Source of the DNA: Acidobacteriota bacterium
GTDB lineage: Bacteria; Acidobacteriota; Terriglobia; Acidiferrales; UBA7541
DNA: 34,878 nt
Reading direction: 5' to 3'
Assembly (NCBI GenBank): GCA_003225295.1
Contig: QHYZ01000097.1
Span: 1-34,878, forward strand
Positions within the stretch are counted from its first letter, which is position 1, and every line of letters begins with the position of its first letter. Positions 2,453 through 34,878 of this stretch are shown here, piece by piece. A program made the translations under genes and the position numbers. Under the pieces are notes generated by a model. It saw only the letters and a list, made by a program, of their open reading frames with translations, did not search any database and had not been told where the DNA came from.

Positions 2453-3346
2453 TCAGTGCGGCAGCTTGTCGTAGACCATCAAGCCGAGCAACAACGGAAT
2501 GTGCAGGACCGTCGCGTGCATGAGCCACTTGGCGCGAGCGTTCGTCTTGTTGCTAGAGGCCCACAGGCACACCTGCACCAAGGCGGTGCTGGTGACCAGC
2601 GCGCCAAAGAAATACTTCACGCCGGCCAGCCCTAGAATTGCTGGAAGCAAGCTCACCCCCACAAGTGCGACCGCATACAGAATGATCTGCCGGAACGTGC
2701 GTGAACCCTCGCGGTCAACCAACGGCAGCATCATGATGCCCGCGCGAGCGTAATCTTCGCGGTACATCCAGGCAATGGCATGGAAGTGCGGAAACTGCCA
2801 CAGAAACAATATTCCGAACAGCAACCACGCGCCACGGTCAAGCGACCCTGTTGCCGCCACCCAGCCGATCATCGGGGGAATAGCCCCGGGAAAAGCGCCG
2901 ATGAACGTCGCCCACACGGTGCGTTTCTTCAAGGGAGTGTAAGCCAGCAGGTAGCTCAGGCAGGTCGCCATGCCGAGTCCCGAAGCAAGCGCACCGGCCG
3001 CCACATACAGGTCCACGGCCCCGGCACTCGCCAGCGCCAGGCCAAAGACCAGCGCCTCCCGCGGCTGCAACACGCCGCTTGGCAGCGGTCGGGAAGCCGT
3101 TCGCCGCATGTGACGGTCGGACTCGCGCTCGATGTAATGATTCAATGCCGCGGTGCCCGCGGCGATGAGCATCGTGCCGAAAACGGCATGAATCATGTGC
3201 AGCCATGCGATGGGGCCGCGCGCTCCCATGTAATAACCGGCAGCCGTCGTCATCAGCACGAGGAAAGAAACGTCCGGCTTCGTCAGCGAGACGTATCCAT
3301 TCGCGCGGGCAGAAAACGTCAGCTCCGTGGCGTGTGCCGTGCTCAT
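2453..3346 (-). CDS. ctaB: Protoheme IX farnesyltransferase (heme O synthase)
   Basis: Membrane prenyltransferase of the UbiA superfamily, 297 residues, which adds a farnesyl group to protoheme to make heme O, the precursor of heme A. It shows the family signature near residue 65 (LNHYIERESDRHMRRTASRPLPSG), with the Asp-rich NxxxDxxxD-type motif here rendered as NHYIERESDRHM. A second motif, YTPLKKRT, is followed by the conserved IGAFPGAIPPMIGW loop and LFLWQFPHFHAIAW. About eight to nine hydrophobic segments are visible. The start at 3346 is chosen because its ATG overlaps the ctaA stop (ATGA) and the protein begins just before the first conserved helix; a longer in-frame extension would run antisense-like through ctaA. 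Coupling to ctaA agrees with the pathway order. Confidence 0.95.
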   Translation of the reverse strand: MSTAHATELTFSARANGYVSLTKPDVSFLVLMTTAAGYYMGARGPIAWLHMIHAVFGTMLIAAGTAALNHYIERESDRHMRRTASRPLPSGVLQPREALVFGLALASAGAVDLYVAAGALASGLGMATCLSYLLAYTPLKKRTVWATFIGAFPGAIPPMIGWVAATGSLDRGAWLLFGILFLWQFPHFHAIAWMYREDYARAGIMMLPLVDREGSRTFRQIILYAVALVGVSLLPAILGLAGVKYFFGALVTSTALVQVCLWASSNKTNARAKWLMHATVLHIPLLLGLMVYDKLPH

Positions 3347-4266
3347 CCTGCGGTCACCCGTCTTGACGCCGTTGCGGCAACTTCCCTCCCGCGCGGAATC
3401 AACCTGTAACACATCAGCACGATCAATACCGAGAACGCGAAGAGTATCGCTCCCACGACCGTATGGATCACGGTTAACGTTACCATAACAGGCATCGGCT
3501 GCGGAGCATCCGCGGTAGTCAGCCGCGACCAATAGGCCCCCAGACCCAGTAGGAACTGCGTTCCGAAAATCGCGTGCAGCAAGATTCGCGCCTTGGAGAA
3601 TTCGCGTGACTGCGTAAATCGTTTGCGCAGCGCGACCGCCGTCCAGATAACCATCCCGAGCACCAGCAACGCTCCGGCCATGTGCGGCCAGATCGGGATT
3701 TCCTTGTGCCGGAAGCCGGCGCCCAGAATCACCTGCAGATAGATGACGCCGGCGTTGAGGATCACCAGAGCGTGAATTGAAGGGGCTCCGCTGTCTTGCA
3801 GTAGCGGCTGATCGGAAACCCACCATTTGCTGGTAAACACAGAGATAGCGAGCACGGCGCCAAAAACGATCTGTGCAAAGCAGGCATGGATGATGGGCAG
3901 CCAGTAATGAAGCAACCGTATGACCACCTGGCCGCCGAGGATAGCCTGCACCGCGACACCAAGAACTGCAGTCAACCCCAGCCAACGCAGCCATGGCCGT
4001 TTTTCCTTCACCCAAAGCCATACGGCCAGCGAGAGTGTAAGGAGCCCCAAACCGCCCGCGACAACGCGGTGCGAAAACTCAAATAGGTCGCCGCCCTGAA
4101 GCATGGTTAGCGGAGGAATCCACGTGCCATGGGATTTCGGCCAGTCCGTCACGGAAAGGGCCGCATCTTTCGAGGTAACCAGCGCACCGGCAACGAAAAG
4201 AAGGATGGTCCAGCACACCGCAAAAACGGAGAATCTGTGCACACCTGGATTATAAGTGGATGACAT
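3343..4266 (-). CDS. ctaA: Heme A synthase (COX15/CtaA)
   Basis: Integral membrane monooxygenase of 307 residues that oxidises the C8 methyl of heme O to the formyl group of heme A for aa3/caa3 oxidases. It has the two-fold repeated four-helix architecture: helix starts near residue 10, and conserved His residues appear in FEFSHRVVAG (about 63-72), PIIHACFAQ (about 125-133), IWPHMAGA (about 193-200) and TVIHTVVGA (about 267-275). These are the expected heme ligands. The extracytoplasmic loop TSKDAALSVTDWPKSHG is COX15-like, although the Cys pair known from some Gram-positive CtaA proteins is absent here. The stop overlaps the ctaB start by four bases, so the two are translationally coupled. 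A TATAAT hexamer lies 22 bases upstream of the ATG. Confidence 0.93.
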   Translation of the reverse strand: MSSTYNPGVHRFSVFAVCWTILLFVAGALVTSKDAALSVTDWPKSHGTWIPPLTMLQGGDLFEFSHRVVAGGLGLLTLSLAVWLWVKEKRPWLRWLGLTAVLGVAVQAILGGQVVIRLLHYWLPIIHACFAQIVFGAVLAISVFTSKWWVSDQPLLQDSGAPSIHALVILNAGVIYLQVILGAGFRHKEIPIWPHMAGALLVLGMVIWTAVALRKRFTQSREFSKARILLHAIFGTQFLLGLGAYWSRLTTADAPQPMPVMVTLTVIHTVVGAILFAFSVLIVLMCYRLIPRGREVAATASRRVTAG

Positions 4267-4286
4267 TGCCCTTGTACCAGCGGCGG

Positions 4287-4292
4287 ATTATA
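4287..4292 (-). promoter_or_regulatory. Candidate -10 element upstream of ctaA
   Basis: On the minus strand the sequence GGGGTATAATCC gives a perfect TATAAT, 22 bases before the ctaA ATG, inside the 95-base hemH-ctaA gap. No good -35 hexamer is found at 16-18 bases, so it may be a weak or activator-dependent internal promoter. Confidence 0.35.
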
Positions 4293-4361
4293 CCCCAGAC
4301 GAGAATATTGCGCCCCGGAGAAAAATCGATCAGCAGTCCGTATCCCACAAAAACGTCGAGT

Positions 4362-5441
4362 TCAAACGTTGGATGAAATCGGGCCGGTCTCCTGACCCGC
4401 TGCTGGTGCTCGCAGGATGGAAGGCAACCCTGCCTCAATTCCCACGGCGTGCAACACGAGGTCCTTCAGCGCGGCGATAAATAGGGGCGAATCCCCCACC
4501 GCGGGCATCATGCGGAACGTGTGGATGCCCAGCTGGCCCGCTTGCTCGCGGGCCTCGATGTTGATTTCGTGGAGCGTTTCGATGTGCTCGGTGACGAACG
4601 AAATGGGAACGACGAGCATCTCTTTCACGCCTTCGTGGCCAAGCCGCTCGATGGTCCCGGTAAGCGGCGGTTGCAGCCACTTGGCGGGACCCACGCGGCT
4701 CTGGTAGCACAGCAAGTGCGCCCGGGGCCAGCCCGCGTACCGCTTGGCACCCAGCTCACAAGCCAGGCGCACGGTCTCTTCAATCTGTTTCGGATAAGGA
4801 TCGCCCTTTTCGACCAAGCTCATCGGCAGGCCGTGCGCGCTGAACACCAAGTGAATGCGCGAACTGTCCGGAAATTGGCGCAATACGGATCCGATCCGTT
4901 GAACCAGCGCCTGAATATACAACGGATGGTTGTGAAAATTGTTGACCGTGCGTTCCGGCGGGCCCCCCGCAGAGTGTCCCCACTTTGCTTGATCGGCGAC
5001 CCGGCGCCATTCCTTCAAGCTGCTCAGTGTTGTGGCGTACGAATAATGCGGATAAAGCGGCAACAAAACGATTTCATCAAGTGGCCCAGACTTGCGCAAC
5101 GTATCCACGGCCTCGGTCGTGAACGGATGCCAGTAACGCATCGCCACCACTGCCACCGGATCAACGTAAGGCGAGACCGCTTCGACCAGGCGCAAGCGCT
5201 GCCGTTCGGTGAGCGTCTCGATCGGCGAGCGCCGGCCGATTTGGGCGTAGCGGCCAGCGACCGGGATGGACCGGCGCGAAGAAATGAGCTTCGCAATCGG
5301 GCGGCGTAGCAGTCCGAAGGGTCCGAGCGGAATTATGTCCGGGTCCAGAAATAGATTCAGCAGAAATGGCTCTACGGCTTCCAGCGAATTCGGCCCGCCG
5401 AGCTGAAACATCACGATTCCGACTCTTTTTTTCCCTGCCAA
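4362..5441 (-). CDS. hemH: Ferrochelatase
   Basis: Inserts ferrous iron into protoporphyrin IX (or coproporphyrin III in some lineages), the terminal metal insertion of heme synthesis. The 359-residue protein starts like the family (VGIVMFQLGGPNSLEAVEPFL), carries the signature LVFSAHGLPMSLVEKGDPYP around residues 198-217 with the catalytic His, the YQSRVGPAKWLQPP segment, and the ISFVTEHIETLHEIN motif with the conserved Glu. The start is a TTG at 5441, two bases beyond the ccmD stop; no ATG nearby would keep the N-terminal strand. The C-terminus has about 25 extra residues (PSILRAPAAGQETG) beyond the usual fold. Its place between ccmD and ctaA links heme production with its use in cytochromes c and oxidase. 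Confidence 0.95.
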   Translation of the reverse strand: MAGKKRVGIVMFQLGGPNSLEAVEPFLLNLFLDPDIIPLGPFGLLRRPIAKLISSRRSIPVAGRYAQIGRRSPIETLTERQRLRLVEAVSPYVDPVAVVAMRYWHPFTTEAVDTLRKSGPLDEIVLLPLYPHYSYATTLSSLKEWRRVADQAKWGHSAGGPPERTVNNFHNHPLYIQALVQRIGSVLRQFPDSSRIHLVFSAHGLPMSLVEKGDPYPKQIEETVRLACELGAKRYAGWPRAHLLCYQSRVGPAKWLQPPLTGTIERLGHEGVKEMLVVPISFVTEHIETLHEINIEAREQAGQLGIHTFRMMPAVGDSPLFIAALKDLVLHAVGIEAGLPSILRAPAAGQETGPISSNV

Positions 5442-5442
5442 G

Positions 5443-5586
5443 CTATTTGCCCCGGCTCAATGAATTTTTCAGGCGCTCGATGTCCTCGCGTAGGACAGAG
5501 GTGCGACGTGCAATGCTGATGTAATAGACGAAGAAAACGGTCCAGCCAATCATATAGGCCGCGAAAACACTATTGAGATTTTTCAT
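5443..5586 (-). CDS. ccmD: CcmD-like small heme exporter subunit
   Basis: Short 47-residue protein with one transmembrane helix near the N-terminus (FAAYMIGWTVFFVYYISIA, about residues 8-26) followed by a basic, charged helix (RRTSVLREDIERLKN). This is the CcmD topology: a small membrane protein required to release holo-CcmE from the CcmABC complex. The ATG overlaps the ccmC stop (ATGA), and hemH begins right after its stop. Size, topology and position identify it; sequence conservation in this family is low, so the name rests strongly on context. Confidence 0.85.
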   Translation of the reverse strand: MKNLNSVFAAYMIGWTVFFVYYISIARRTSVLREDIERLKNSLSRGK

Positions 5587-6260
5587 GCTGCCTCCAATTC
5601 ACGTTGAATAATCTCGAGATCGCCTCGCATGGCCTCCAGCCGATAGCGCTGGCGCAGGAGTAGTGTCATCAAACCGAGCATGGCAAGCCAAGTGAAGAAA
5701 AGTACTCTGTACATCGTCGGGTCAAGCCCGGCGCCAGGCGCGCCCATAATAATTGGCTGTGGGTGCTGCGTGCGCCACCAGCGAATCGAACCGAAGACGA
5801 GAGGCACATCGATGAATGCGAATATGCCAAAGAGCGCACTAAGGAGTGCCCGCCTATCGGGCTCTTCGACCAGCGTCCGCAGGAGCAGATAGGAGACATA
5901 GAGCAGCCACAATACAAAAGTCGATGTGAGCCGCGCGTCCCAAGTCCACCAGATTCCCCAAACAGGATGGGCCCAGATGGGGCCGGTCAAGAGCACCACG
6001 GTAGTGAACACCAAACCAGTTTCACCCGCCGAAACACCCAGCCAGTCCCATCGTGGCTGGCGGCGCAAAACGTACAGGGAGTTCGCAATGAAGCAGATAA
6101 AGAATGAAGTAAGGCCGGTCCATGCGCTTGCCACGTGCAGGTACAATATCCGGTAGATCACACCTTGTTTCGCATCCGTCGGGGCCACAAAGAACGCTGC
6201 ATAGGCAGCCACCCCGAGAAGCAGAAGCACAACCATTGCAGATAGAACACTCTTCTTCAT
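5583..6260 (-). CDS. ccmC: Heme exporter protein CcmC
   Basis: Polytopic membrane protein of 225 residues of the heme-handling protein superfamily, which presents heme to CcmE at the periplasmic face. It has six predicted helices, the tryptophan-rich WAHPVWGIWWTWDARLTS motif (about residues 88-105), and conserved histidines in YRILYLHVASAW (about 40-51) and in IRWWRTQHPQP (about 150-160). The start at 6260 is chosen because a strong GGAGGAG element precedes it by about ten bases and the signal-anchor helix begins directly after MKK; an in-frame extension to 6353 would overlap ccmB without added domain content. It is five bases downstream of ccmB and overlaps ccmD. Confidence 0.95.
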   Translation of the reverse strand: MKKSVLSAMVVLLLLGVAAYAAFFVAPTDAKQGVIYRILYLHVASAWTGLTSFFICFIANSLYVLRRQPRWDWLGVSAGETGLVFTTVVLLTGPIWAHPVWGIWWTWDARLTSTFVLWLLYVSYLLLRTLVEEPDRRALLSALFGIFAFIDVPLVFGSIRWWRTQHPQPIIMGAPGAGLDPTMYRVLFFTWLAMLGLMTLLLRQRYRLEAMRGDLEIIQRELEAA

Positions 6261-6265
6261 GAGGG

Positions 6266-6940
6266 TTACTCCTCCACAAGATATTCGCCCAGAAGCCACA
6301 GGATCGTCAAAAAAGCCAGATCGAAAACCGCCAGGAAGCCAACTCCTTTCCATTGAACGTAGGGTGAGCGGTCGAATAGGGCTGCCGTTACTTCCGTGCT
6401 GGCCACCAGTATGGGTGTCAGGAGCGGGAGCAGAAGCAGTGGTAAAAGGAGTTCACGCATTCGGGCTTGCGCAGAGATGGCCGATAGAGCGGTGCCTGCA
6501 ATCGAGACCCCTAGACTTCCCAGAAAAAACACAAGCACGAGCCAGTGAAGCGTGGGCAAGACCGCTACGTTGTACATCACCGCGAAGACCGGCAGCAGCA
6601 AGAGTTCCGTAAGGAGAAGAAACAGGGTATTAGCAGCGAGCTTCGCTAGAAAGATAGCAAAAGGATCGGAGACCGAAAGACGCAAGGCACTGAGTGTGTC
6701 GCTGGTTTGTTCGCGGAGAAAGCACGACTGCAACATCAAAGACGCAGCGAAGAGAAACGCCAGCCAGAGGAGACCCGCGCCGAACCGTCGCGATTCCTCC
6801 GAAGTCGGATCGAAGGAAAAGCTGAAGAGCACCATGACGATCAGAACAAAAACAGTAGTAGTTGTGAGAAGTTCGCGCGAACGAAACTCCGTGCGAAGTT
6901 CCTTGCCAAGCAGGACCGTCGTATTGGAGAGCAGCGCCAT
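6266..6940 (-). CDS. ccmB: Heme exporter protein CcmB
   Basis: Membrane subunit of the CcmAB ABC complex, 224 residues with about six transmembrane helices. Family features include the cytoplasmic KELRTEFRSRE segment near the N-terminus, the FLREQTSDTLSALRLS loop (about residues 72-87) and the LLLPLLTPILVAST helix. With CcmA it uses ATP to release heme-loaded CcmE from CcmCD. The start ATG directly abuts the ccmA stop with no intervening base, and ccmC follows after five bases, so expression is tightly coupled. Confidence 0.94.
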   Translation of the reverse strand: MALLSNTTVLLGKELRTEFRSRELLTTTTVFVLIVMVLFSFSFDPTSEESRRFGAGLLWLAFLFAASLMLQSCFLREQTSDTLSALRLSVSDPFAIFLAKLAANTLFLLLTELLLLPVFAVMYNVAVLPTLHWLVLVFFLGSLGVSIAGTALSAISAQARMRELLLPLLLLPLLTPILVASTEVTAALFDRSPYVQWKGVGFLAVFDLAFLTILWLLGEYLVEE

Positions 6941-7675
6941 TCACGCGTTCGCAAAGGCCAGGACAGATCGAAAATTCGCACCGGTTCGCGTGTCGGCCAC
7001 CACCGCGCCGGCATCCAGCTGGATCGCCCGCGTGGCCAGCGTGGAGACTTCCGACTCGCCGTGCAGGCTCATCACGATGGTGCGGCCCGAATCTCTCAAG
7101 TGACGGAGCGTCTCGGCAAACCAGTGCGCCCCTTGCGGATCAAGCCCCGTCGTCGGCTCGTCCAGGAGAACCACGGCGGGTTGGTTTAGAAGCGCGCGCG
7201 CAATGGCGACGCGTTGGCGCATTCCGCGAGAAAACGTGCGCACTAGGGAGCTCCGGCGCTCCAGCAGGCCCACCTCCCGGAGCAGCGCCTCGGCGCGCGC
7301 GGCAGGCTCGGCGATTCCCTGTAGGCGCGCGAAGAGCAGAAGATTCTCTTCCGCCGTAAGCTCATCATAGACCATCGTGGCGTGCGCCACGAAACCGGCC
7401 CGCGGCAGCGTCCCGTCTCTCTCTTTCCCACTGTCGAGGAAGCTCACGCGGCCTGACGAGGGACGCACGAGGCAGGCCGCAATTCGCAAAAGCGTCGTCT
7501 TGCCGGAGCCGTTCCGCCCGGCGAATACCACGCACTCACCCGCTGAGATTTCCAGAGAAACGCGACGCAGCGCGTAAAGCCCGCCGTACCGTTTGTCAAT
7601 GTTTTCGAAGCGAATTCCAGTAGGAGAAAAAACCGTCGGCGTCACCGGGCGACCTCGGAGATCGACAGAGCACAC
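6941..7675 (-). CDS. ccmA: Heme exporter ATP-binding protein CcmA
   Basis: Cytosolic ABC ATPase partner of CcmB, 244 residues. Walker A GRNGSGKTT is near residue 53, the ABC signature is FSRGMRQRVAIARAL, Walker B is VVLLDEPTTGLDP, and the switch His is in MSLHGES. The signature SRGMRQR replaces the more usual LSGGQ, as is common in CcmA. The start is GTG at 7675, fourteen bases after the upstream gene's stop; about 15 residues precede the fold, so a slightly later start is possible. The stop abuts ccmB. Confidence 0.94.
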   Translation of the reverse strand: MCSVDLRGRPVTPTVFSPTGIRFENIDKRYGGLYALRRVSLEISAGECVVFAGRNGSGKTTLLRIAACLVRPSSGRVSFLDSGKERDGTLPRAGFVAHATMVYDELTAEENLLLFARLQGIAEPAARAEALLREVGLLERRSSLVRTFSRGMRQRVAIARALLNQPAVVLLDEPTTGLDPQGAHWFAETLRHLRDSGRTIVMSLHGESEVSTLATRAIQLDAGAVVADTRTGANFRSVLAFANA

Positions 7676-7689
7676 CCAGTCTTCAAGGG

Positions 7690-9003
7690 TTAGCCTCGCA
7701 CGAGATCGCGCAACACTTTTTCCGTGCTAGCGCGTTCCAATGCATATTCTTCTTCGGAGATGGTGCCCGCTTGTCGGCGCAGCTCGAGCCGGAACAGGCG
7801 CTCCTTTAGCCCATCCAGGCTGGTGCCGATGGCCACATCGAGTTCCTTAAGACTTGCGGCCCCGTTTGTTGGAACCGCAGGCGCACTCGGCGCAGAGGGG
7901 GCCTTCGATTTGGGTTTCTTCTGCTTTGCTGCAGCAACGTCCTGCTCCACCGGGGCCGGCACAGCTACCGCCACAACCGACTTGCGTGCAAGCAAAATCG
8001 CAACCAACGCAAAAACGCAAAGAAATCCAGCGATTAATGGCCATTTCAAAACGTCCAGGCGTCCGGGAACCTGCTGGATCCCTGCGCCGGTTGCTTCGCC
8101 GCCGCCCTGCTGTGCGTCCCGGCCCTGCTGCTGACCTTGCTCCGTTCCGGCATTTGCGTCCGGCACCGGCGCCGTGCCAGATACGCTCACGGCCACCAGC
8201 GTACCTGCCGGAACATCCTGACGGCCGTAGAGATTCATGCCCTGTTCTTGTCCCCCCGGAGCCAAGCCATCCCCGCTAATCTGCACACTGGGTGGCGCAA
8301 CAACCAGCAACCGGCCGCCCGGATAAATCGTCGCAATCTTTACCGTCGCCGCGTTCCCCTCGTACGGCAGCGTGTAGGAATACCGCACCGAGTTGTCACC
8401 AGGCCGAAACGCGAAGGCAATCGAGTAATGATTATTCTTCTTGTCGATGGGAAGTTGCACGACCGGCATGCCCGCTGGCCCGGCAGCGGCTACTTGTTGG
8501 AGCTGGCCTTTTTCCGGCAATGCGAAATTAAAACTGCCGTCGCTCCGGAAATAAGCTACCGGCGGCTGAGACTTGTTCTCTATTTGGTATTCTTCGCCGA
8601 CAGTCAGCGTCGCACCGTTCGGCTGAAAGATCACCACGTGTGAAGCTACGTTGATCGTCTTCGCGTCCTTGGAAGGCTCATAAATATCCACCTGCGCGGT
8701 GGCGGTGCCGGGCGGCACGGCATGATTGAAATTAACGCCGTGATACACCGCGCGGACGAGCATGGGCTGCGCACCGAGCCCGGGATGCTCAAACGTGAAT
8801 TCCCCTTGCGCGCCGCTCTTGGAATGGGCGACTTCCTGCATCCCCCCCTGAAGCTGGATCAGGATGAGCTCAATTCCCGCCGCTGCTTTGCCAGTTGTGC
8901 CGTTCATCACCGTGCCGCGAACCGTCCCGGCCTCGGCGATCGCCAGTGGAGCCAGCACCAGTGCGCCGAGCAATGCCAAACGCGCGGAGTAAGGGCGCCT
9001 CAT
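7690..9003 (-). CDS. Secreted/membrane companion protein with carboxypeptidase-regulatory-like and SHOCT-like parts
   Basis: 437-residue protein inside the ccm operon. A signal peptide covers about residues 1-25 (ALLGALVLAPLAIAEA). It is followed by a beta-sandwich of the carboxypeptidase regulatory type (GTVRGTVMNGTTGKAAAGIELIL), then a second beta-rich extracytoplasmic region, a Gln/Gly-rich linker, one transmembrane helix at about 320-345 (WPLIAGFLCVFALVAILLA), a Pro/Ala/Lys linker, and a C-terminal helical hairpin (LFRLELRRQAGTISEEEY). The hairpin resembles SHOCT domains and also the tail of the adjacent ccmI-like protein. The four-base overlap with that gene and the closeness to ccmA imply a role in cytochrome c assembly, perhaps as a scaffold at the heme-ligation site; this is inference, since it is not a canonical Ccm subunit. 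Confidence 0.8.
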   Translation of the reverse strand: MRRPYSARLALLGALVLAPLAIAEAGTVRGTVMNGTTGKAAAGIELILIQLQGGMQEVAHSKSGAQGEFTFEHPGLGAQPMLVRAVYHGVNFNHAVPPGTATAQVDIYEPSKDAKTINVASHVVIFQPNGATLTVGEEYQIENKSQPPVAYFRSDGSFNFALPEKGQLQQVAAAGPAGMPVVQLPIDKKNNHYSIAFAFRPGDNSVRYSYTLPYEGNAATVKIATIYPGGRLLVVAPPSVQISGDGLAPGGQEQGMNLYGRQDVPAGTLVAVSVSGTAPVPDANAGTEQGQQQGRDAQQGGGEATGAGIQQVPGRLDVLKWPLIAGFLCVFALVAILLARKSVVAVAVPAPVEQDVAAAKQKKPKSKAPSAPSAPAVPTNGAASLKELDVAIGTSLDGLKERLFRLELRRQAGTISEEEYALERASTEKVLRDLVRG

Positions 9004-9374
9004 GGCGCGCTCCCGTCAGCCGAGCGTGTTCCGCGCGGCCGCCGCACCTGCGCATCTGTCACCTGATCGATCTCCACGAGCACCAGCGCCGCTTCATTCT
9101 CAAGGCCTGTCTTCATCGCTTCGAAGTCACCTTCCGAGTATTTTCCGGAACGATACTCAAACCGCAGATCGCGCAGATTGTCGTAAATCGTGTCGCGGCG
9201 CTCCAGCAGTTGATCGAGCCGGGTCCGGTGCGGGGCAAGATCGGAGGCATCCGGCTGAATGTAAAATATAAAAAGCATGGTGGCAATGGCCAACGCCAAG
9301 CATGCACCCAGCACCGCCCAATCCCCGGAGGCAATCAGGAATATCGCAAGTGGGTAAAGCGCAGGCACCATCAT
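9000..9374 (-). CDS. CcmI-like membrane protein
   Basis: 124 residues: two adjacent hydrophobic helices at about 5-38 (ALYPLAIFLIASGDW, LGACLALAIATMLFIFYI), then a charged helical hairpin (RLDQLLERRDTIYDNLRDLRFEYRSGKYSEGDFE is the region at about 51-85). This matches the N-terminal membrane part of CcmI, which recruits apocytochrome and holds CcmF and CcmH together; the periplasmic TPR domain of proteobacterial CcmI is missing. The ATG directly follows the ccmH stop, and its stop overlaps the next gene by four bases. Assignment is by topology, size and operon position. Confidence 0.72.
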   Translation of the reverse strand: MMVPALYPLAIFLIASGDWAVLGACLALAIATMLFIFYIQPDASDLAPHRTRLDQLLERRDTIYDNLRDLRFEYRSGKYSEGDFEAMKTGLENEAALVLVEIDQVTDAQVRRPRGTRSADGSAP

Positions 9375-9866
9375 TTAATCCTGAGTCTCGCGTGACGCCC
9401 GCGCTCTGGAACGCTCCAACAAGTCGGCTGAAATGCCCGGGGCGGCTCCGGCGGGCGCGGCGGGGCGCTTTCGCCACCTGGATATCACGAAAACGACCAG
9501 TCCCGTGCCAACGAACAGATAAACGCTCGGCAATACCCAGGCGACGAGACTGAAACCTGATTTGGGCGGTTCCGCGTACACTTTCGTTCCGAATTCCTGC
9601 ACGAACATTTGCGTGATGGCATCCTCGGAATCGCCACGCGACAAGCTCTGGTCCAATTCCTTCAGCATGCTCGAGGACGTGCTGCAGCCCACGTGATTGC
9701 ATCCCGTAAGCACCTGGTTGCAGTTGCACATGCACATGAACTTGCCGCCCACCTGTTTCGCGCGATCGGAGAGTTGCTGTGCCCCGGCGGGCGTGATCAG
9801 CAGCGGCACAACGGCGAACATCACCAGCATGGTAATCGCGGCAACGGGCCGCGCTTTTTTAGTCAT
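9375..9866 (-). CDS. ccmH: Cytochrome c biogenesis protein CcmH, multi-cysteine variant
   Basis: Membrane-anchored thiol-disulfide protein that keeps the apocytochrome CxxCH cysteines reduced for heme attachment. 163 residues: signal/anchor helix at 9-29, then the redox segment GKFMCMCNCNQVLTGCNHVGC, a helix, and a second transmembrane helix near 107-130 (WVLPSVYLFVGTGLVVFVI). Instead of the proteobacterial LRCxxC, five cysteines appear at about residues 45, 47, 49, 56 and 61. The start at 9866 is chosen because GAGAGGG lies just upstream; it overlaps the ccmF stop by eight bases. A longer in-frame start at 9902 would overlap ccmF further. Confidence 0.9.
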   Translation of the reverse strand: MTKKARPVAAITMLVMFAVVPLLITPAGAQQLSDRAKQVGGKFMCMCNCNQVLTGCNHVGCSTSSSMLKELDQSLSRGDSEDAITQMFVQEFGTKVYAEPPKSGFSLVAWVLPSVYLFVGTGLVVFVISRWRKRPAAPAGAAPGISADLLERSRARASRETQD

Positions 9867-11916
9867 GGCCCTCTCGCAATGTAACCGACGGAGTAAGTCC
9901 ATGCGCTAATGGTTGTGCCGCTGGCTGCGGGGCGCCCGCGAGCACCAGCACGGCGCGGCGGTTCGGCAACATCGCCACCAGCGTTCCAAACACCACCACT
10001 GCTCCTCCGAGCCAGATCCACTTCACCAGAGGATTCAGATAGGCATGTAGCACGGGCAGGTTTGTCTCCGGGCTATCTCCGGCATAGACCACGTACAAAT
10101 CTTCCTTCAGCGTGGAGTAGATCGCCACCATCGTGCCGTTTTGCTCATTCGTCGAGAAGTGCCGCTTCTCCGGATAAAGCATCATCAGCGGCTTTTTGTC
10201 ACGCAGCACTTCGACGTTCATCCGTTGCGCGGTATAATTCTTCTCCGGCTTACTGTCGAAGCCCTGCAGCAGCAAAGTGTACGGCCCGATCTGCATGGTC
10301 TGGCCAACCTGCATGTCCTTTTGTATGTCGCGGTTAAACGCCGCACCAGCCAGCCCGATGAACACGAACACCATCCCCACATGAACGATATAACCGCCAT
10401 AACGCCGCGTATTGCGCAGCGTGAGATCCACCGCCGATGCCAAAAACGAAGCGCCGGCGCGCGCGCGAATCACCTTCGCACCACGATAGAATTCCAAGCC
10501 CACTGTGGAAGCCACAAATACGCATAGAATCAGGCACACCCAGGAGTAGATCTCGCGGAACCCAAACACCAGGGCAATCACGCCGGCCACCAACCCGATT
10601 GCCAGCGGCCAGCCAAAATTCCGCTTTAGGCTCTCGGTGGAAGTCTTCCGCCACGCCAGCAGCGGTCCCACGCCGGTCAAAAACAGGAGCAGCAACCCGA
10701 TGGGAATGTTCACCTTGTTAAAGAACGGGGCACCCACACTGATGCGGTTGCCGGTGATCCACTCGGAAAAAACCGGGAACAGCGTCCCGGAGAGAATTGC
10801 GATACAGGACACCAGAAGAATCAGATTGTTAAATAGGAAGCTCGATTCGCGCGAAACGATCGAATCAAGTTGATTCTCGCTCTTCAGGTAGTCGCGATTC
10901 TTCAAATAGGCCCCGAAGCACACCGTTATAATAAGTACGAGAAAGCCCACGAACCAGGTGCCGATGCTGGATTGCGCGAAGGCATGCACCGAGCTGACGA
11001 TGCCACTGCGTGTCAGAAATGTCCCCAGGATACAGAGCAGGAATGTGGAGAACACCAGCCACACATTCCAGACCTTCATCATGCCGCGCTTCTCCTGCAT
11101 CATCACGGAGTGCAGGAAGGCCGTGCCCGTCAGCCACGGTAAGAAGGAGGCGTTTTCAACCGGATCCCAGCCCCAGTAACCGCCCCAGCCGAGCACCGCG
11201 TAGGCCCAGTGGGCGCCCAGCAAAATGCCCATGGACTGAAACATCCACGCAATCATGGTCCACTTGCGCGTCAGATGAATCCACTTCTCGCCTGGGTAGC
11301 GGGCCAGCAGCGCGCCCAGCGCAAAGGCGAACGGAATGGTGAAGCCGGTATACCCCGAATACAGGTTGGGCGGATGGATCACCATCTCCGGGTATTGCAG
11401 CAGGGGATTCAATCCGCTGCCGTCGGCCCGCGCGACGTAATTCATCACCCCGTCTGCTCCCGCCGACGCCAGCGCTTTGAACGGGCTGGCAACAAAGTTA
11501 TTCAGCGTGAGGAAGAAAATCTGCACGCCGGCCATTACAACGCCGACGTAGGGCATCAACTCGCCATTCTTGTTCCGGTAGGTGACCAATACGGACAACA
11601 CATAAACGGCCAGGAGGAAGCTCCAGAACAGCAGCGAACCTTCCTGCCCGGACCACAGCGCGGCGATCTTATAAAATGTCGACAGGTCGCGATTGCTATG
11701 TGCCACGACGTAGGCGTTGGAAAAATTGTCGCTGAAGAACAGGTATTCGAGGCTGAATGTGGCGAGGAAAATCAGGCCGCAGGTGGCCATGCCGGCCTGC
11801 CGGGTGCTCTTGATTAGCAGCGGATGCCGCGTGAAAATTGCCGCGATACCCCCGCCAAACGCATACACCGCGCACACAAATGCTAAGACCAGTGCAAAGG
11901 AACCGAATACATCCAT
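9859..11916 (-). CDS. ccmF: Cytochrome c heme lyase CcmF
   Basis: Large membrane heme lyase, 685 residues with about 14-15 helices, which transfers heme from CcmE to the CxxCH motif of apocytochromes c. The tryptophan-rich heme-handling motif is WGGYWGWDPVENASFLPWL (about residues 224-242). Conserved periplasmic histidines appear in MVIHPPNLYSGY (about 179-190), AFLHSVMMQ (about 247-255), SSVHAFAQS (about 310-318) and in YIVHVGMVF (about 510-518). The C-terminal periplasmic domain around 540-640 has the usual YTLLLQGFDSKPEKNYTAQR region. The start ATG lies 35 bases after the ccmE stop, and the 3' end overlaps ccmH. Confidence 0.96.
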   Translation of the reverse strand: MDVFGSFALVLAFVCAVYAFGGGIAAIFTRHPLLIKSTRQAGMATCGLIFLATFSLEYLFFSDNFSNAYVVAHSNRDLSTFYKIAALWSGQEGSLLFWSFLLAVYVLSVLVTYRNKNGELMPYVGVVMAGVQIFFLTLNNFVASPFKALASAGADGVMNYVARADGSGLNPLLQYPEMVIHPPNLYSGYTGFTIPFAFALGALLARYPGEKWIHLTRKWTMIAWMFQSMGILLGAHWAYAVLGWGGYWGWDPVENASFLPWLTGTAFLHSVMMQEKRGMMKVWNVWLVFSTFLLCILGTFLTRSGIVSSVHAFAQSSIGTWFVGFLVLIITVCFGAYLKNRDYLKSENQLDSIVSRESSFLFNNLILLVSCIAILSGTLFPVFSEWITGNRISVGAPFFNKVNIPIGLLLLFLTGVGPLLAWRKTSTESLKRNFGWPLAIGLVAGVIALVFGFREIYSWVCLILCVFVASTVGLEFYRGAKVIRARAGASFLASAVDLTLRNTRRYGGYIVHVGMVFVFIGLAGAAFNRDIQKDMQVGQTMQIGPYTLLLQGFDSKPEKNYTAQRMNVEVLRDKKPLMMLYPEKRHFSTNEQNGTMVAIYSTLKEDLYVVYAGDSPETNLPVLHAYLNPLVKWIWLGGAVVVFGTLVAMLPNRRAVLVLAGAPQPAAQPLAHGLTPSVTLREGHD

Positions 11917-28754: not shown

Positions 28755-31370
28755 TTATTCTCCGCTGGCCGCCTTCTTCGCCAGTGCCAGGTTCCCATGC
28801 AGCTCAAAAAATCTGCTGGTAAAGCGATTCTCCGGATCAACGGCATGCTTCCTTTGGAAAAAAGCGCCAATCTCGCTGTACGCCTTTCTCAGCCAATCCA
28901 TCTCCAGTTCCCGCGCATAGGTCAGATAAAACGTTCCGCCGCAATTCACAGCGAGGCGCACCAGCCGATTGATCAGTGCGTTTGCCTTCGCTCGGCCATC
29001 GGCCGAACATACTTCGTTGAAGTAAACTATCACCGCGAATGCATTTTCTTTCGGTGCATAGGAAAGAGCCGTTTCGTTGTTGGCTTTCACATACCGTAAT
29101 GTCACGCCGAGGAGGTTCGTCTCCTCTTCTTGCAGGATGCCCCGCAGGCCTTCCATAAAAGTCATAAACCGCGGAATCGGAACAAAGAACTCTTGTATCA
29201 CGTCGGTGTCTTTTTCCGAATTATGTTCGAACATCTTCACCGCTGACACCGGTGGCCGCATGGCGTTATTTCTCGACACCAGTGTCTTGGTTGGCGAGTC
29301 GCGGGAGAGGTATTTCTCCGCATGCCACCGAAGCGTCTTCCCCCATTTGTATTGCCGCGACAATCCAAACAGAAACCGGTCGCGCGCTACGTTACGCTCG
29401 TGGTCCAGCTGAAACACCCCTTTATGGATTCTGTCCGTTTTTCTCCACATCGTTACGATCGTGTCGCTCAGAAAGCAATGCGGTGAAATCGAGGGGCGCG
29501 CCAAAAACAGCTCCACAGCGGGATTCGCCCGGACCTCTTGCTCGAAATTCTTGACCAGCGCCGCCAAGGGAATGACCGCGGAGCACTGCTCATAGACGCA
29601 ATCGTCCACCAGCGCAAAATCCACATCAAGGATGATTCCGAACAATCCGTATCCGCCGATGGCATTCCTGAACATCGCAGGATTCTCGTTCCGGCTAACG
29701 GACATTACCGATCCGTCCGCCAGCATGATCCGGAAGCCCAGCACGCTTTCCACAATGGTCGAGAACCGGGTGTCGCGTCCGTGAGCATTTGCCGCCAGCG
29801 AGCCCCCCACGGTGAAAATGTTGTCCGACTGCATGGCCTTCAGCGCCAGCCCCGCGGGATTCACGGCCTCTTGGATCTTGTCCCAAGTAATTCCGCTTTC
29901 TACCGTTATGCGCTTCTGTTCTCTATCTACGGAGCACACCCGATTGAACTGCCTCATGTCGAGAACCATCGCTCCATTCACAAAGGCGTGCCCGCCCAGG
30001 TTGTGACCGGTTCCCATCATGCAGACTGGTAAATTCTCTCGTTGCGCGCGTTGCACAACGTTTCGAATGTCCTCAACGCTTCTCGGCGTTTCAATGGTGC
30101 GCGCCACCGCCGCATAAACTCGTCGCGCGTCGGTCACCCGCAGATGAGGGGACTTGTCGAAAAGCTCAGCAATCGCCTTGCTGAGTCGCTGGCGTTCCCG
30201 CGGGGGAACCTTTGGATACACCGGCAGGTATAGTAATTTTCGATGAATCTCTCGCGTCTTGGAAGGCTCCAAAGCCTCCCGCCCGGCTGGCGGACAGATC
30301 ACGGAGAGCGCTGATCCAGATGTGGTTCCATCGAATCCGCGTCGGTGAAGTTCCGCCATGAATCGTTCCCGCGCTTCAACCAGAATCGGAAACACCCAAA
30401 AGCTGTGGAACGCCGCCCGATTTCCGGGATAGGAAATCTCGCGCGGCAGCGATTTCGCAAATTCCCTTCCCACGTGGATTCGTTCAGTCAGCCGGACGGC
30501 GTCGAACGTCCGCAGCCGGTGTGCCAGCAGCGCCAAAAGTGGGAAGGAGCATTGCTTGTGGATTTCCTTCAGCCAATCTTCCTCATCCAATCCCCGCACC
30601 CTAGCGATCAGCTCTTCAAAATCCGTTCCCCAAAGCGCGCATCCGCGGTACAACAAACCGAACAACGACGGCAGAGTAAACAGTTTGAGGATCACATGCG
30701 TCAGAAGCGTGCCGGCAAATTCCTTCCGCGTCTGAGTCGGATGCGTCCTCTGGATGACGCGCATCTTCCGTCTAAGCTCCGCATCCCTTACTCGCAGCAG
30801 AGCCCCTCCCAGTGACGTCATCGTCTTGATCGAACCGAAGCTGAACATCGCCACATCCGTCTCCGGATGCCCGGTGTAATCGTGGCCGGTAAACGCCTGC
30901 GCGCAGTCCTCGATCACCAGGATTCCGTGTTTTTTCGCCAACTCGACCACCGGCCCCATCGGCGTGCGCGTGCCAAAAAGGTGCGCAATCACAATCGCCC
31001 GCGTGCGTTCCGTGATGGCCTCTTCGATCGTCGCTATTTCAGGAGCCAGTGTCCCGCCTTCGATGTCCAGGGGAATCGGAACGAGTCTGTGATGCTTCAC
31101 GATATCAACCATCTCTTTGATGGTCAGCGCGGACATCAGAATCTCACTGCCCGCCGGTAACCCCAGCGCCCCCAGACACATATCGAATCCCGTCCGCACG
31201 GTAAACGCCGAAAGCACCGGGAAAGGAGACGCAAACATTCCTTCGAGTTCCGCTTCTTTAGCACGAATACTTCTGGGGAAAGCGCAATAGAACGCCGCGT
31301 ACAGAAGATCCAACCATCGGATATCCAGCTGCTTCCTGGGATACATTCGGAATCGAAGTGACTTTGTCAT
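28755..31370 (-). CDS. Fusion of DegT-type aminotransferase and VAO/DprE1-like FAD oxidase
   Basis: Single uninterrupted frame of 871 residues. Part 1 (about 1-405) is a DegT/DnrJ/EryC1/StrS PLP aminotransferase: VIEDCAQAF contains the cofactor Asp155, and MFSFGSIKTMTSLGGA contains the Schiff-base Lys182; the domain ends with the family-like LYLPVYPKVPPRERQ. It has extra hydrophobic segments (about 20-32 and 222-240), suggesting membrane association. Part 2 (about 426-871) is an FAD oxidase of the PCMH fold: MGTGHNLGGHAF (about 452-463), TVGGSLAANAHGRDTRFS (about 520-537) and IGGYGLFGIILDVDF, most like the DprE1/aldonolactone oxidase group. Start 31370 is chosen as the first Met before the fold; it lacks a Shine-Dalgarno, and a GTG start at 31469 is open. 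An oxidation-transamination role on a sugar or cyclitol is inference. Confidence 0.88.
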   Translation of the reverse strand: MTKSLRFRMYPRKQLDIRWLDLLYAAFYCAFPRSIRAKEAELEGMFASPFPVLSAFTVRTGFDMCLGALGLPAGSEILMSALTIKEMVDIVKHHRLVPIPLDIEGGTLAPEIATIEEAITERTRAIVIAHLFGTRTPMGPVVELAKKHGILVIEDCAQAFTGHDYTGHPETDVAMFSFGSIKTMTSLGGALLRVRDAELRRKMRVIQRTHPTQTRKEFAGTLLTHVILKLFTLPSLFGLLYRGCALWGTDFEELIARVRGLDEEDWLKEIHKQCSFPLLALLAHRLRTFDAVRLTERIHVGREFAKSLPREISYPGNRAAFHSFWVFPILVEARERFMAELHRRGFDGTTSGSALSVICPPAGREALEPSKTREIHRKLLYLPVYPKVPPRERQRLSKAIAELFDKSPHLRVTDARRVYAAVARTIETPRSVEDIRNVVQRAQRENLPVCMMGTGHNLGGHAFVNGAMVLDMRQFNRVCSVDREQKRITVESGITWDKIQEAVNPAGLALKAMQSDNIFTVGGSLAANAHGRDTRFSTIVESVLGFRIMLADGSVMSVSRNENPAMFRNAIGGYGLFGIILDVDFALVDDCVYEQCSAVIPLAALVKNFEQEVRANPAVELFLARPSISPHCFLSDTIVTMWRKTDRIHKGVFQLDHERNVARDRFLFGLSRQYKWGKTLRWHAEKYLSRDSPTKTLVSRNNAMRPPVSAVKMFEHNSEKDTDVIQEFFVPIPRFMTFMEGLRGILQEEETNLLGVTLRYVKANNETALSYAPKENAFAVIVYFNEVCSADGRAKANALINRLVRLAVNCGGTFYLTYARELEMDWLRKAYSEIGAFFQRKHAVDPENRFTSRFFELHGNLALAKKAASGE

Positions 31371-31602
31371 TAGGAGAGGTCCGCGCGCAGGCTTAGGATG
31401 CCGTTGCTTGCGGGGGTAAACAATTGGCCGTACACTCCACCATTTCCTCGTCGCCTGTTGGACAGTCACCGCCCGAAGGGGCGGATTCTACACCACCCTC
31501 TACGCCTACACTACAGCCTGTTTCATGCATGGATTTCGGAGGTTGCCGCTTTTGCCTCTCTTACTTTCATAAATCATGCTCATTTTTCCGGCTCGCTCCT
31601 GC

Positions 31603-34309: not shown

Positions 34310-34327
34310 CCCCGTGTTTTAGCGGGG
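34310..34327 (-). terminator. Possible terminator of the right-edge transposase
   Basis: CCCCG and CGGGG pair across the transposase stop codon, followed on the minus strand by CATTTCTCTT. A five-base stem with an eight-base loop is weak, so this is tentative. Confidence 0.3.
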
Positions 34328-34878
34328 TTTGCGACGTTCTGGCAGTTTTTTGCGCGTGTCTACACGCACCTTCACGCTGGGCAGGACGTCTGGCAAACGG
34401 ATATCCAAGGCCTGCAGCAAATCACGGCAGGCCGGATTCGGCATGGGGATGCGCAGGCAAGTACCGCCCTCTTTGATTTTCATTTCCGTCGAACTCAGCG
34501 CCTTCAACTGTTGTAGTCCCTCTTCGACGGTCACGTCCAAGGCCGCCCAAGCCCGGCTCAAGACCCGCCGGATGAGATAAGCCAGCATCACCACCAGAAC
34601 ATGAGCGCGCGTGTGCGCTGCGGTGCGTACATGGATCGGGCGAGTTTCCAGATGGGTGGTCTTGCAGGTGCGGAAGGCTTGTTCGACTTGCGTCAGATCC
34701 TTGTAGCGGTCATGCACTTCTTGCTTGGAAACAGCGCTCACCGGGAGATCCGTCTTGATCACGTAGCAGCCATCCAGTCGAGCGGCCTGTTCGTGAGCGG
34801 CGGAGTCCACCCGCAACGCCAGGGTTCGCCCCTGTACTTCGACCTGCAGCCAGTCATCGATTTTCAGTCGCTGGATCC
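34319..34878 (-). CDS. IS1634/IS4-type transposase, C-terminal part, cut by window edge
   Basis: DDE transposase fragment of about 186 residues, open to the window edge, so the first Asp residues and most of the catalytic domain lie outside. The visible part has the IS4-superfamily C-terminal motif: Y-x2-L-x3-E-x6-K in DRYKDLTQVEQAFRTCK, with the catalytic Glu, and the typical LETRPIHVRTAAHTRAHVLVVMLAYLI helix, quoted in part here. The C-terminus is a basic tail (VDTRKKLPERRKPR). No disruption is seen in the visible part. Family placement between IS1634 and its IS4 relatives is by motif memory only. Confidence 0.8.
   Translation of the reverse strand, partial: IQRLKIDDWLQVEVQGRTLALRVDSAAHEQAARLDGCYVIKTDLPVSAVSKQEVHDRYKDLTQVEQAFRTCKTTHLETRPIHVRTAAHTRAHVLVVMLAYLIRRVLSRAWAALDVTVEEGLQQLKALSSTEMKIKEGGTCLRIPMPNPACRDLLQALDIRLPDVLPSVKVRVDTRKKLPERRKPR

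Follow-up and report, generated by a model that had tools for sequence, protein, structure and literature searches.

Does one acidobacterial polypeptide that joins a DegT-type aminotransferase to an FAD oxidoreductase oxidize an alcohol and then aminate the ketone it has made? The question is raised by a single gene in the window, i.e., the whole stretch of 34,878 nucleotides that was analyzed. Our best single reading, to which we give a probability of about 0.42, is that the gene may encode a cytosolic bifunctional enzyme that converts an alcohol to a ketone and the ketone to an amine. The fusion itself is real and is conserved within a single genus of soil acidobacteria. It is a new combination of known domain families and was not found described in the open-licence PMC papers searched.

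An earlier interpretation of this DNA, the sequence-only reading, had described one polypeptide with two full-length modules. Pfam found both domains in a single frame: DegT_DnrJ_EryC1 (PF01041) at residues 61–209 (E = 1.6e-31; 110.3 bits against a cut-off of 19.8) and FAD_binding_4 at residues 428–558 (E = 2.6e-32; 111.9 bits against a cut-off of 26.4). Lys182, Asp155, and the motif MGTGHNLGGH (residues 452–461) were also located where that reading had put them. The minus-strand frame is open from 28755 to 31469, or 904 amino acids if a GTG is taken as the start. Translation nevertheless probably begins at the ATG at 31370, since the orthologs align from about this position and the sequence upstream diverges except in a relative of 96% identity; no clear Shine-Dalgarno sequence was seen ahead of this ATG. 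The features discussed below are listed in Table 1.

Table 1. Features of the fusion gene, with positions in the window and residue numbers counted from the ATG at 31370.
Feature	Position	Strand	Evidence
Fusion gene, 871 aa	28755..31370	(-)	ATG at 31370 taken as start
DegT/DnrJ/EryC1/StrS half, residues 1–408	30147..31370	(-)	Pfam; AlphaFold2; Z 34.5 to ArnB
Asp155, predicted contact of PLP ring nitrogen	30906..30908	(-)	9/9 fusions, 34/34 standalone DegT
Lys182, predicted PLP Schiff base	30825..30827	(-)	9/9 fusions, 34/34 standalone DegT
Insertion with helices, residues about 205–290	30501..30758	(-)	Alignment; AlphaFold2 helices; hydropathy
FAD oxidoreductase half, residues 412–871	28758..30137	(-)	Pfam; alignment; domain scan
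Flavin motif MGTGHNLGGH, His456 at covalent-FAD position	29988..30017	(-)	Pairs with GalDH position 56
Gln514, oxygen-gatekeeper position	29829..29831	(-)	Aligns with Ala113 of GalDH
Glu727, putative substrate residue	29190..29192	(-)	27/27 standalone, 10/10 fusion rows
Arg759, putative substrate residue	29094..29096	(-)	27/27 standalone, 10/10 fusion rows
Tyr818, YLxY motif of cap	28917..28919	(-)	27/27 standalone, 10/10 fusion rows

The architecture was searched for across genomes and recurs within one genus. Among 89 genomes of the family, nine, including the window's own, contain the fusion at full length and in one frame, and two further genomes carry pieces of it that are cut by contig ends. 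These carriers make up 11 of the 36 genomes of the window's genus, compared to none of the 53 elsewhere in the family. The other eight full-length proteins are 59–96% identical to that of the window. When 95 genomes of the order, 399 of the class, and 396 of the phylum were searched with a profile, no fusion turned up outside the genus; these sets overlap, and the larger ones were scored on the best two candidates per genome. Matches occurred in 584 plasmid records, none of which covered 80% of the fusion query. An exact-peptide scan of the genome collection, using peptides of one protein, returned five loci (L009–L013), all from acidobacterial MAGs and taken as genomes already counted, so that they add no carriers; none of the 60% identity group was returned.

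This distribution leaves next to no probability that the fusion is an assembly join or a frame artifact. Two relatives do end at contig ends, and nothing else speaks for such an origin; we rejected it on the strength of nine genomes that hold the fusion in one frame and in differing genomic contexts. Loss of the named catalytic residues in relatives, which had been raised as another way for the proposal to fail, is ruled out by the invariance of Lys182, Asp155, and His456 in all nine full-length fusions. Split orthologs were also sought. In 11 genomes that have a relative of the FAD half and lack the fusion, no DegT protein was close to the fusion half, with all matches at E = 1.9e-22 or weaker and within query residues 31–211. 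Among the best-scoring candidates of the 11 carriers, any match to the fusion profile beyond the fusion itself was no stronger than about E = 1e-21.

Alignment and domain scans show the FAD half to be colinear with the standalone FAD family over its full length. All 18 columns that are strictly invariant in the 27 standalone rows are kept in all ten fusion rows, as are 41 of the 58 columns conserved at 85% or above; these counts omit L126, which is truncated by a contig end, and the outgroup L007. Position 456 is His in 23 of the 27 standalone rows and in all ten fusion rows, while the position of Gln514 is Gln in every row of both sets (27/27 and 10/10). According to a study of aldonolactone oxidoreductases, a Leu-to-His change near the dimethylbenzene ring of the flavin installs a covalent link, and the oxygen gate of these enzymes is Ala113 or Gly (PMC11099136). 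FAD is therefore probably bound covalently at His456, and the Gln at the oxygen gate of the fusion would speak against a simple O2 oxidase.

The sequence-only reading had assigned this half to the DprE1 type. Kinship stands, in that both belong to the same superfamily, whereas membership was rejected: the NCBIfam model for DprE1 (NF053785) scored 98.3 bits against a cut-off of 500, and the lactone oxidases were about equally near, the sugar-1,4-lactone oxidase model (TIGR01678) giving 98.5 bits where its cut-off is 396.8. Because these scores are near-equal and lie far under both cut-offs, we place the FAD half in a distinct, uncharacterised family near the lactone oxidases and DprE1 that belongs to neither. 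When a profile of the FAD family was compared with solved structures, GalDH ranked first and DprE1 next. The C-terminal part of the fusion is also matched, weakly, by a second stretch of the DprE1 model, and a phmmer search of the PDB with residues 601–871 gave no match. Of six FAD-family proteins scanned for the ALO cap domain (PF04030), L127 and L122 scored above the cut-off, and the fusion itself, the truncated L126, L128, and L129 did not.

For the DegT half, Pfam covers the large domain only, and an AlphaFold2 model of this half alone (65 sequences; pLDDT 80.4; pTM 0.82) adds the small domain. Confidence in this model falls to a pLDDT under 50 at residues 1–16 and 222–237; a model of the whole protein had a pLDDT of 50.1 and was set aside. 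The best solved match listed for the model was ArnB (Z = 34.5; rmsd 2.6 over 327 residues), and the solved folds among the matches listed were sugar aminotransferases or close DegT kin, with the caveat that the alignment behind the model consisted of DegT relatives and so favored that fold. The modeled half has both domains of the type I aminotransferase fold and is thus complete. Two Deinococcus DegT proteins were also matched, and no FAD oxidase was annotated within 7 kb of either.

Conservation of the DegT active site is less even. Asp155, Ser177, and Lys182 are invariant across the 65 aligned DegT rows, and the roles of the Lys and Asp, together with an active site built from two subunits, were confirmed in a DegT relative in one report (PMC5936713). 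In three aminotransferases described in another, Thr60, Asp156, Ser180, Lys185, and Asn239 lie near the external aldimine and are conserved (PMC8040287). Pairing these positions by alignment and spacing via the standalone DegT proteins, and not through that chain itself, indicates that the fusions keep the Asp, Ser, and Lys of this set, but have Arg59 in place of the Thr and Ser or Ala in place of the Asn. The top-scoring standalone DegT relatives (L101, L103, L105, and L108–L110) also have Arg for Thr, but retain the Asn; the SGR clade of DegT proteins likewise lacks the Thr. Across 34 standalone DegT rows, seven of 12 strictly invariant columns are kept in the fusions and five are lost, and 22 of 45 columns conserved at 85% or above are kept. 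Both active sites had been described as visible in the sequence; that of the FAD half is well kept (18/18), while that of the DegT half is kept in part, with five of the 12 invariant columns and two of the five aldimine residues lost. Judged by these residues, PLP binding by the DegT half is likely, and ordinary transamination is plausible but not assured.

Phylogenetic trees were used to trace the origin of the two halves. The ten fusion rows of a 39-protein FAD tree formed one clade (support 100/100), and their nearest relative (support 98/94) was L126, a standalone FAD protein from another acidobacterial family that is truncated at its contig end. The nine fusion rows of a 43-protein DegT tree likewise formed one clade (100/100), subtended by a branch of length 2.49. 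Both trees were midpoint-rooted, and long branches and odd compositions were flagged in them. A single fusion event is likely on this topology. Of 25 standalone FAD proteins, 23 have either a hydrophobic N-terminus (10) or two arginines within residues 1–30 (13), the second being a loose test that the outgroup L007 passes too; L092 and L096 have neither. The DegT half of the fusion stands where the standalone proteins have this hydrophobic or twin-arginine stretch, and for this reason the fusion protein is probably cytosolic. In a further scenario, which we consider less likely than not, the fusion would be a natural alcohol aminase in which a covalent-flavin domain makes the ketone and hands it over internally to a tethered PLP domain for amination, and it would have originated when an exported or membrane-anchored lactone-oxidase-like enzyme was moved to the cytosol via fusion to DegT.

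The same observations can be read in another way that we consider unlikely: the FAD half would work, whereas the DegT half would have decayed and been kept as a soluble cap, or as a dimerization or substrate-binding domain, in replacement of the export signal or anchor. The unequal retention of invariant columns (18/18 in the FAD half versus 7/12 in the DegT half), the long DegT branch, and the N-termini of the standalone FAD proteins, as classified by the loose criterion above, are all consistent with this reading. However, the invariance of Lys182, Asp155, and Ser177 in all nine fusions would be of little use to a pure scaffold. Rates of substitution argue in the same direction, given that the dN/dS values of the two halves differed by no more than 0.05 in six of seven pairs. 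Values ranged from 0.08 to 0.33 for the DegT half and from 0.07 to 0.20 for the FAD half, with synonymous sites saturated in several of the pairs. The DegT value of 0.33 came from the closest pair, in which the insertion alone reached 1.03 on few changes. Both halves are under purifying selection.

The gene neighborhood of the fusion differs between genomes. In the window, the fusion gene follows a PilZ gene of the same strand, and a DAHP synthase gene converges on it from downstream. A GH57 gene is found upstream in the opposite direction in three relatives (G002, G019, and G001), a sigma factor gene and a short-chain dehydrogenase adjoin the fusion in three others (G009, G012, and G013), and genes for a 2-oxoacid:ferredoxin oxidoreductase do so in G015; some of these neighbors were scanned with Pfam, usually one member per cluster. 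A downstream converging gene is present in six of the nine full-length genomes, and also in G018, and hence the fusion gene often stands alone. The glycosyltransferase or polyprenyl-sugar genes that the sequence-only reading had suggested looking for beside orthologs were absent among the Pfam-named genes within 2.5 kb, a range in which several neighbors had no Pfam match. No aminosugar cluster was found among the fusion neighbors scanned.

Hydrophobic segments in the DegT half had also been taken to suggest a lipid-linked substrate. The insertion behind this suggestion is real, and it is hydrophobic at residues 222–240, most of which (222–237) fall in the low-confidence part of the model. Its hydropathy is a weak sign: the best 19-residue value was 1.76 in the fusion of the window and 1.71–1.93 over the nine fusions, compared to values of up to 1.85 in standalone DegT proteins, so that the fusions lie within the standalone range save for the one at 1.93. 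A substrate linked to a lipid of the polyprenyl phosphate or hopanoid type is, in our estimation, distinctly unlikely. It would fit with the insertion that the top-scoring standalone DegT relatives have at the same place, and with the genes that adjoin those relatives, which are of the radical SAM kind (tested for L101) or encode VTT (DedA-like) membrane proteins (tested for L103, L105, and L106). It would also fit with LptF/LptG (L045 tested, others by clustering), which lies downstream on the same strand and directly next to the fusion in two of the nine full-length genomes (G019 and G001); in a third (G002), an alpha/beta hydrolase and an NmrA-like gene separate it from the fusion. Set against this, besides the hydropathy, are neighbor genes that vary between subgroups and a genome in which no protein passed the DprE1 cut-off, the best match in the window's genome being the fusion itself at 82.5 of 500 bits. 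Furthermore, scoring points to haem o synthase for the UbiA-family gene in the window, and a polyprenyl-sugar setting in the window was rejected on that ground.

Members of the same oxidase family are joined to several other partners. In other acidobacterial families, one member (L127) is fused to an unnamed family of 376 residues as judged by eye; a second (L129) is fused to DUF805 and a methyltransferase domain; and a third (L128) is fused to a part that resembles an alpha/beta hydrolase by eye and in which Pfam found the FAD domain alone. The 376-residue family also adjoins three standalone oxidases of the window's genus. It was found in three of 20 genomes (G010, G020, and G023) and was absent from all 11 fusion carriers at E = 1e-8. 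Separately, an oxidase gene of Ruegeria pomeroyi is followed by a DUF4383 gene and by an unnamed gene of a size similar to the 376-residue family.

Given these other partners, fused to or beside members of the FAD family, the DegT fusion is one of several couplings, each of which may hint at a pathway. As the FAD family is fused elsewhere to unrelated partners, fusion alone is no proof that two halves share a substrate. Both sites could be active on different substrates or in the reverse order, with the DegT half carrying out other PLP chemistry, or with amination first and flavin oxidation elsewhere on the molecule. This too we regard as unlikely. The fusions of the FAD family to a methyltransferase, a probable alpha/beta hydrolase, and the 376-residue family would accord with it, as would the altered DegT residues near the external aldimine, but formation of a ketone followed by its amination is the established, usual pairing of these two chemistries, and nothing in our analysis points to another PLP reaction.

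Oxidation and transamination of one substrate, as the sequence-only reading had proposed, is the most economical interpretation; conservation of the fusion strengthens it and the partly kept DegT site weakens it. On the model of a bifunctional enzyme, the C-terminal FAD domain would take a hydride from a secondary alcohol to give a ketone, which the N-terminal PLP domain, using Lys182 and Asp155, would aminate with a donor that is probably glutamate. Overall, a single sugar-like or cyclitol-like substrate would exchange an alcohol group for an amine, and the linkage of the two sites would let the keto intermediate be passed on or protected. In support of this model, the best family matches of the FAD half, the aldonolactone oxidoreductases and DprE1, oxidize a sugar hydroxyl. 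The five lost DegT columns, the Arg59 and Ser/Ala substitutions near the external aldimine, the DegT branch length of 2.49, and the lack of pathway neighbors backing an aminosugar weigh against it.

If the bifunctional reading is true, the protein would be a natural single-protein enzyme for converting an alcohol to an amine, a reaction usually spread over several enzymes, and would give aminosugar chemistry a route that uses flavin. If instead the PLP half is inactive, the fusion would be a clear example of a catalytic domain that is decaying but retained as a scaffold. Judging by their N-termini, the standalone members of this oxidase family seem to be exported or membrane-anchored, and yet here the family occurs in a protein with no evident export signal.

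Comparison with known systems shows how each half resembles and departs from its relatives. With ArnB, GDP-perosamine synthase, and WbpE, the fusion shares the complete predicted fold and the PLP-site residues Lys, Asp, and Ser; it differs from them in its large insertion, a TVR in place of the SGT loop, the loss of the Asn, and the attached FAD domain. The FAD domain is shared with GalDH, GULO, and ALO (PF01565 with PF04030), and GULO and ALO have a His at the covalent position (PMC11099136), as does the fusion. These enzymes have Gly or Ala at the oxygen gate, whereas the fusion has Gln and, in addition, a DegT domain. The standalone FAD oxidoreductases, namely L126, L054–L058, and those of Legionella (L112) and Ruegeria (L113), are full-length homologs with 25–37% identity over the FAD half, but have a hydrophobic or twin-arginine N-terminus where the fusion has DegT. 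DprE1 matches the fusion at both ends of the FAD half, and the fusion differs from it in its DegT partner and in His456; the FAD of DprE1 is not known to be covalently bound. The mycobacterial DprE1 has Lys418 in its active site. Pairs of an alcohol oxidase and a DegT aminotransferase occur in aminosugar pathways, e.g., KdnB/KdnA, which likewise oxidize an alcohol before DegT-type amination, but do so as separate proteins and with a different class of oxidase.

An SGR motif in place of SGT, together with an insertion, marks one clade among the standalone relatives of the DegT half (L101, L103, L105, L106, L109, and L110). Radical SAM genes adjoin these DegT genes, as a test showed at L101 and as judged by eye at the other loci, and tests placed VTT/DedA-like membrane genes beside those of L103, L105, and L106. 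With their neighbors, the genes of this clade look like a small uncharacterized pathway.

Relatives of the FAD half are joined to other partners in other acidobacterial families. By-eye comparison identified the partner as an unnamed 376-residue family at L127 (genome G416) and a probable alpha/beta hydrolase at L128 (G591); at L129 (G653), DUF805 and a methyltransferase domain are joined to the FAD-half relative. On an IMG/VR contig catalogued as viral (L122), a FAD oxidase of bacterial type comes after a frame judged phage-capsid-like by eye, and a gene resembling a transporter comes next; this contig is probably a prophage edge.

Transposase genes of the ISNCY and IS1634 families, both above cut-off, lie at the two ends of the window contig and are probably why it breaks there. 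The window also carries a stretch of heme and cytochrome c genes.

Features of the window contig
Feature	Position	Remark
Transposase gene	1-1094	
Heme and cytochrome c genes	2453-11916	
Heme o synthase (UbiA)	within 2453-11916	
Ferrochelatase	within 2453-11916	
CcmB-like gene	within 2453-11916	match below its cut-off
Cytochrome c assembly proteins	within 2453-11916	two, one CcmF-like
ABC ATPase	within 2453-11916	
Transposase gene	34319-34876	

The standalone FAD oxidases of L055, L056, L057, and L113 have two neighbors, a small gene and a larger unnamed one whose product is roughly 350-376 residues long; the small gene matches DUF4383 weakly at L056 and is annotated as DUF4383 at L113. Such a grouping of three genes, seen in acidobacteria and on a Ruegeria megaplasmid, is possibly a conserved module.
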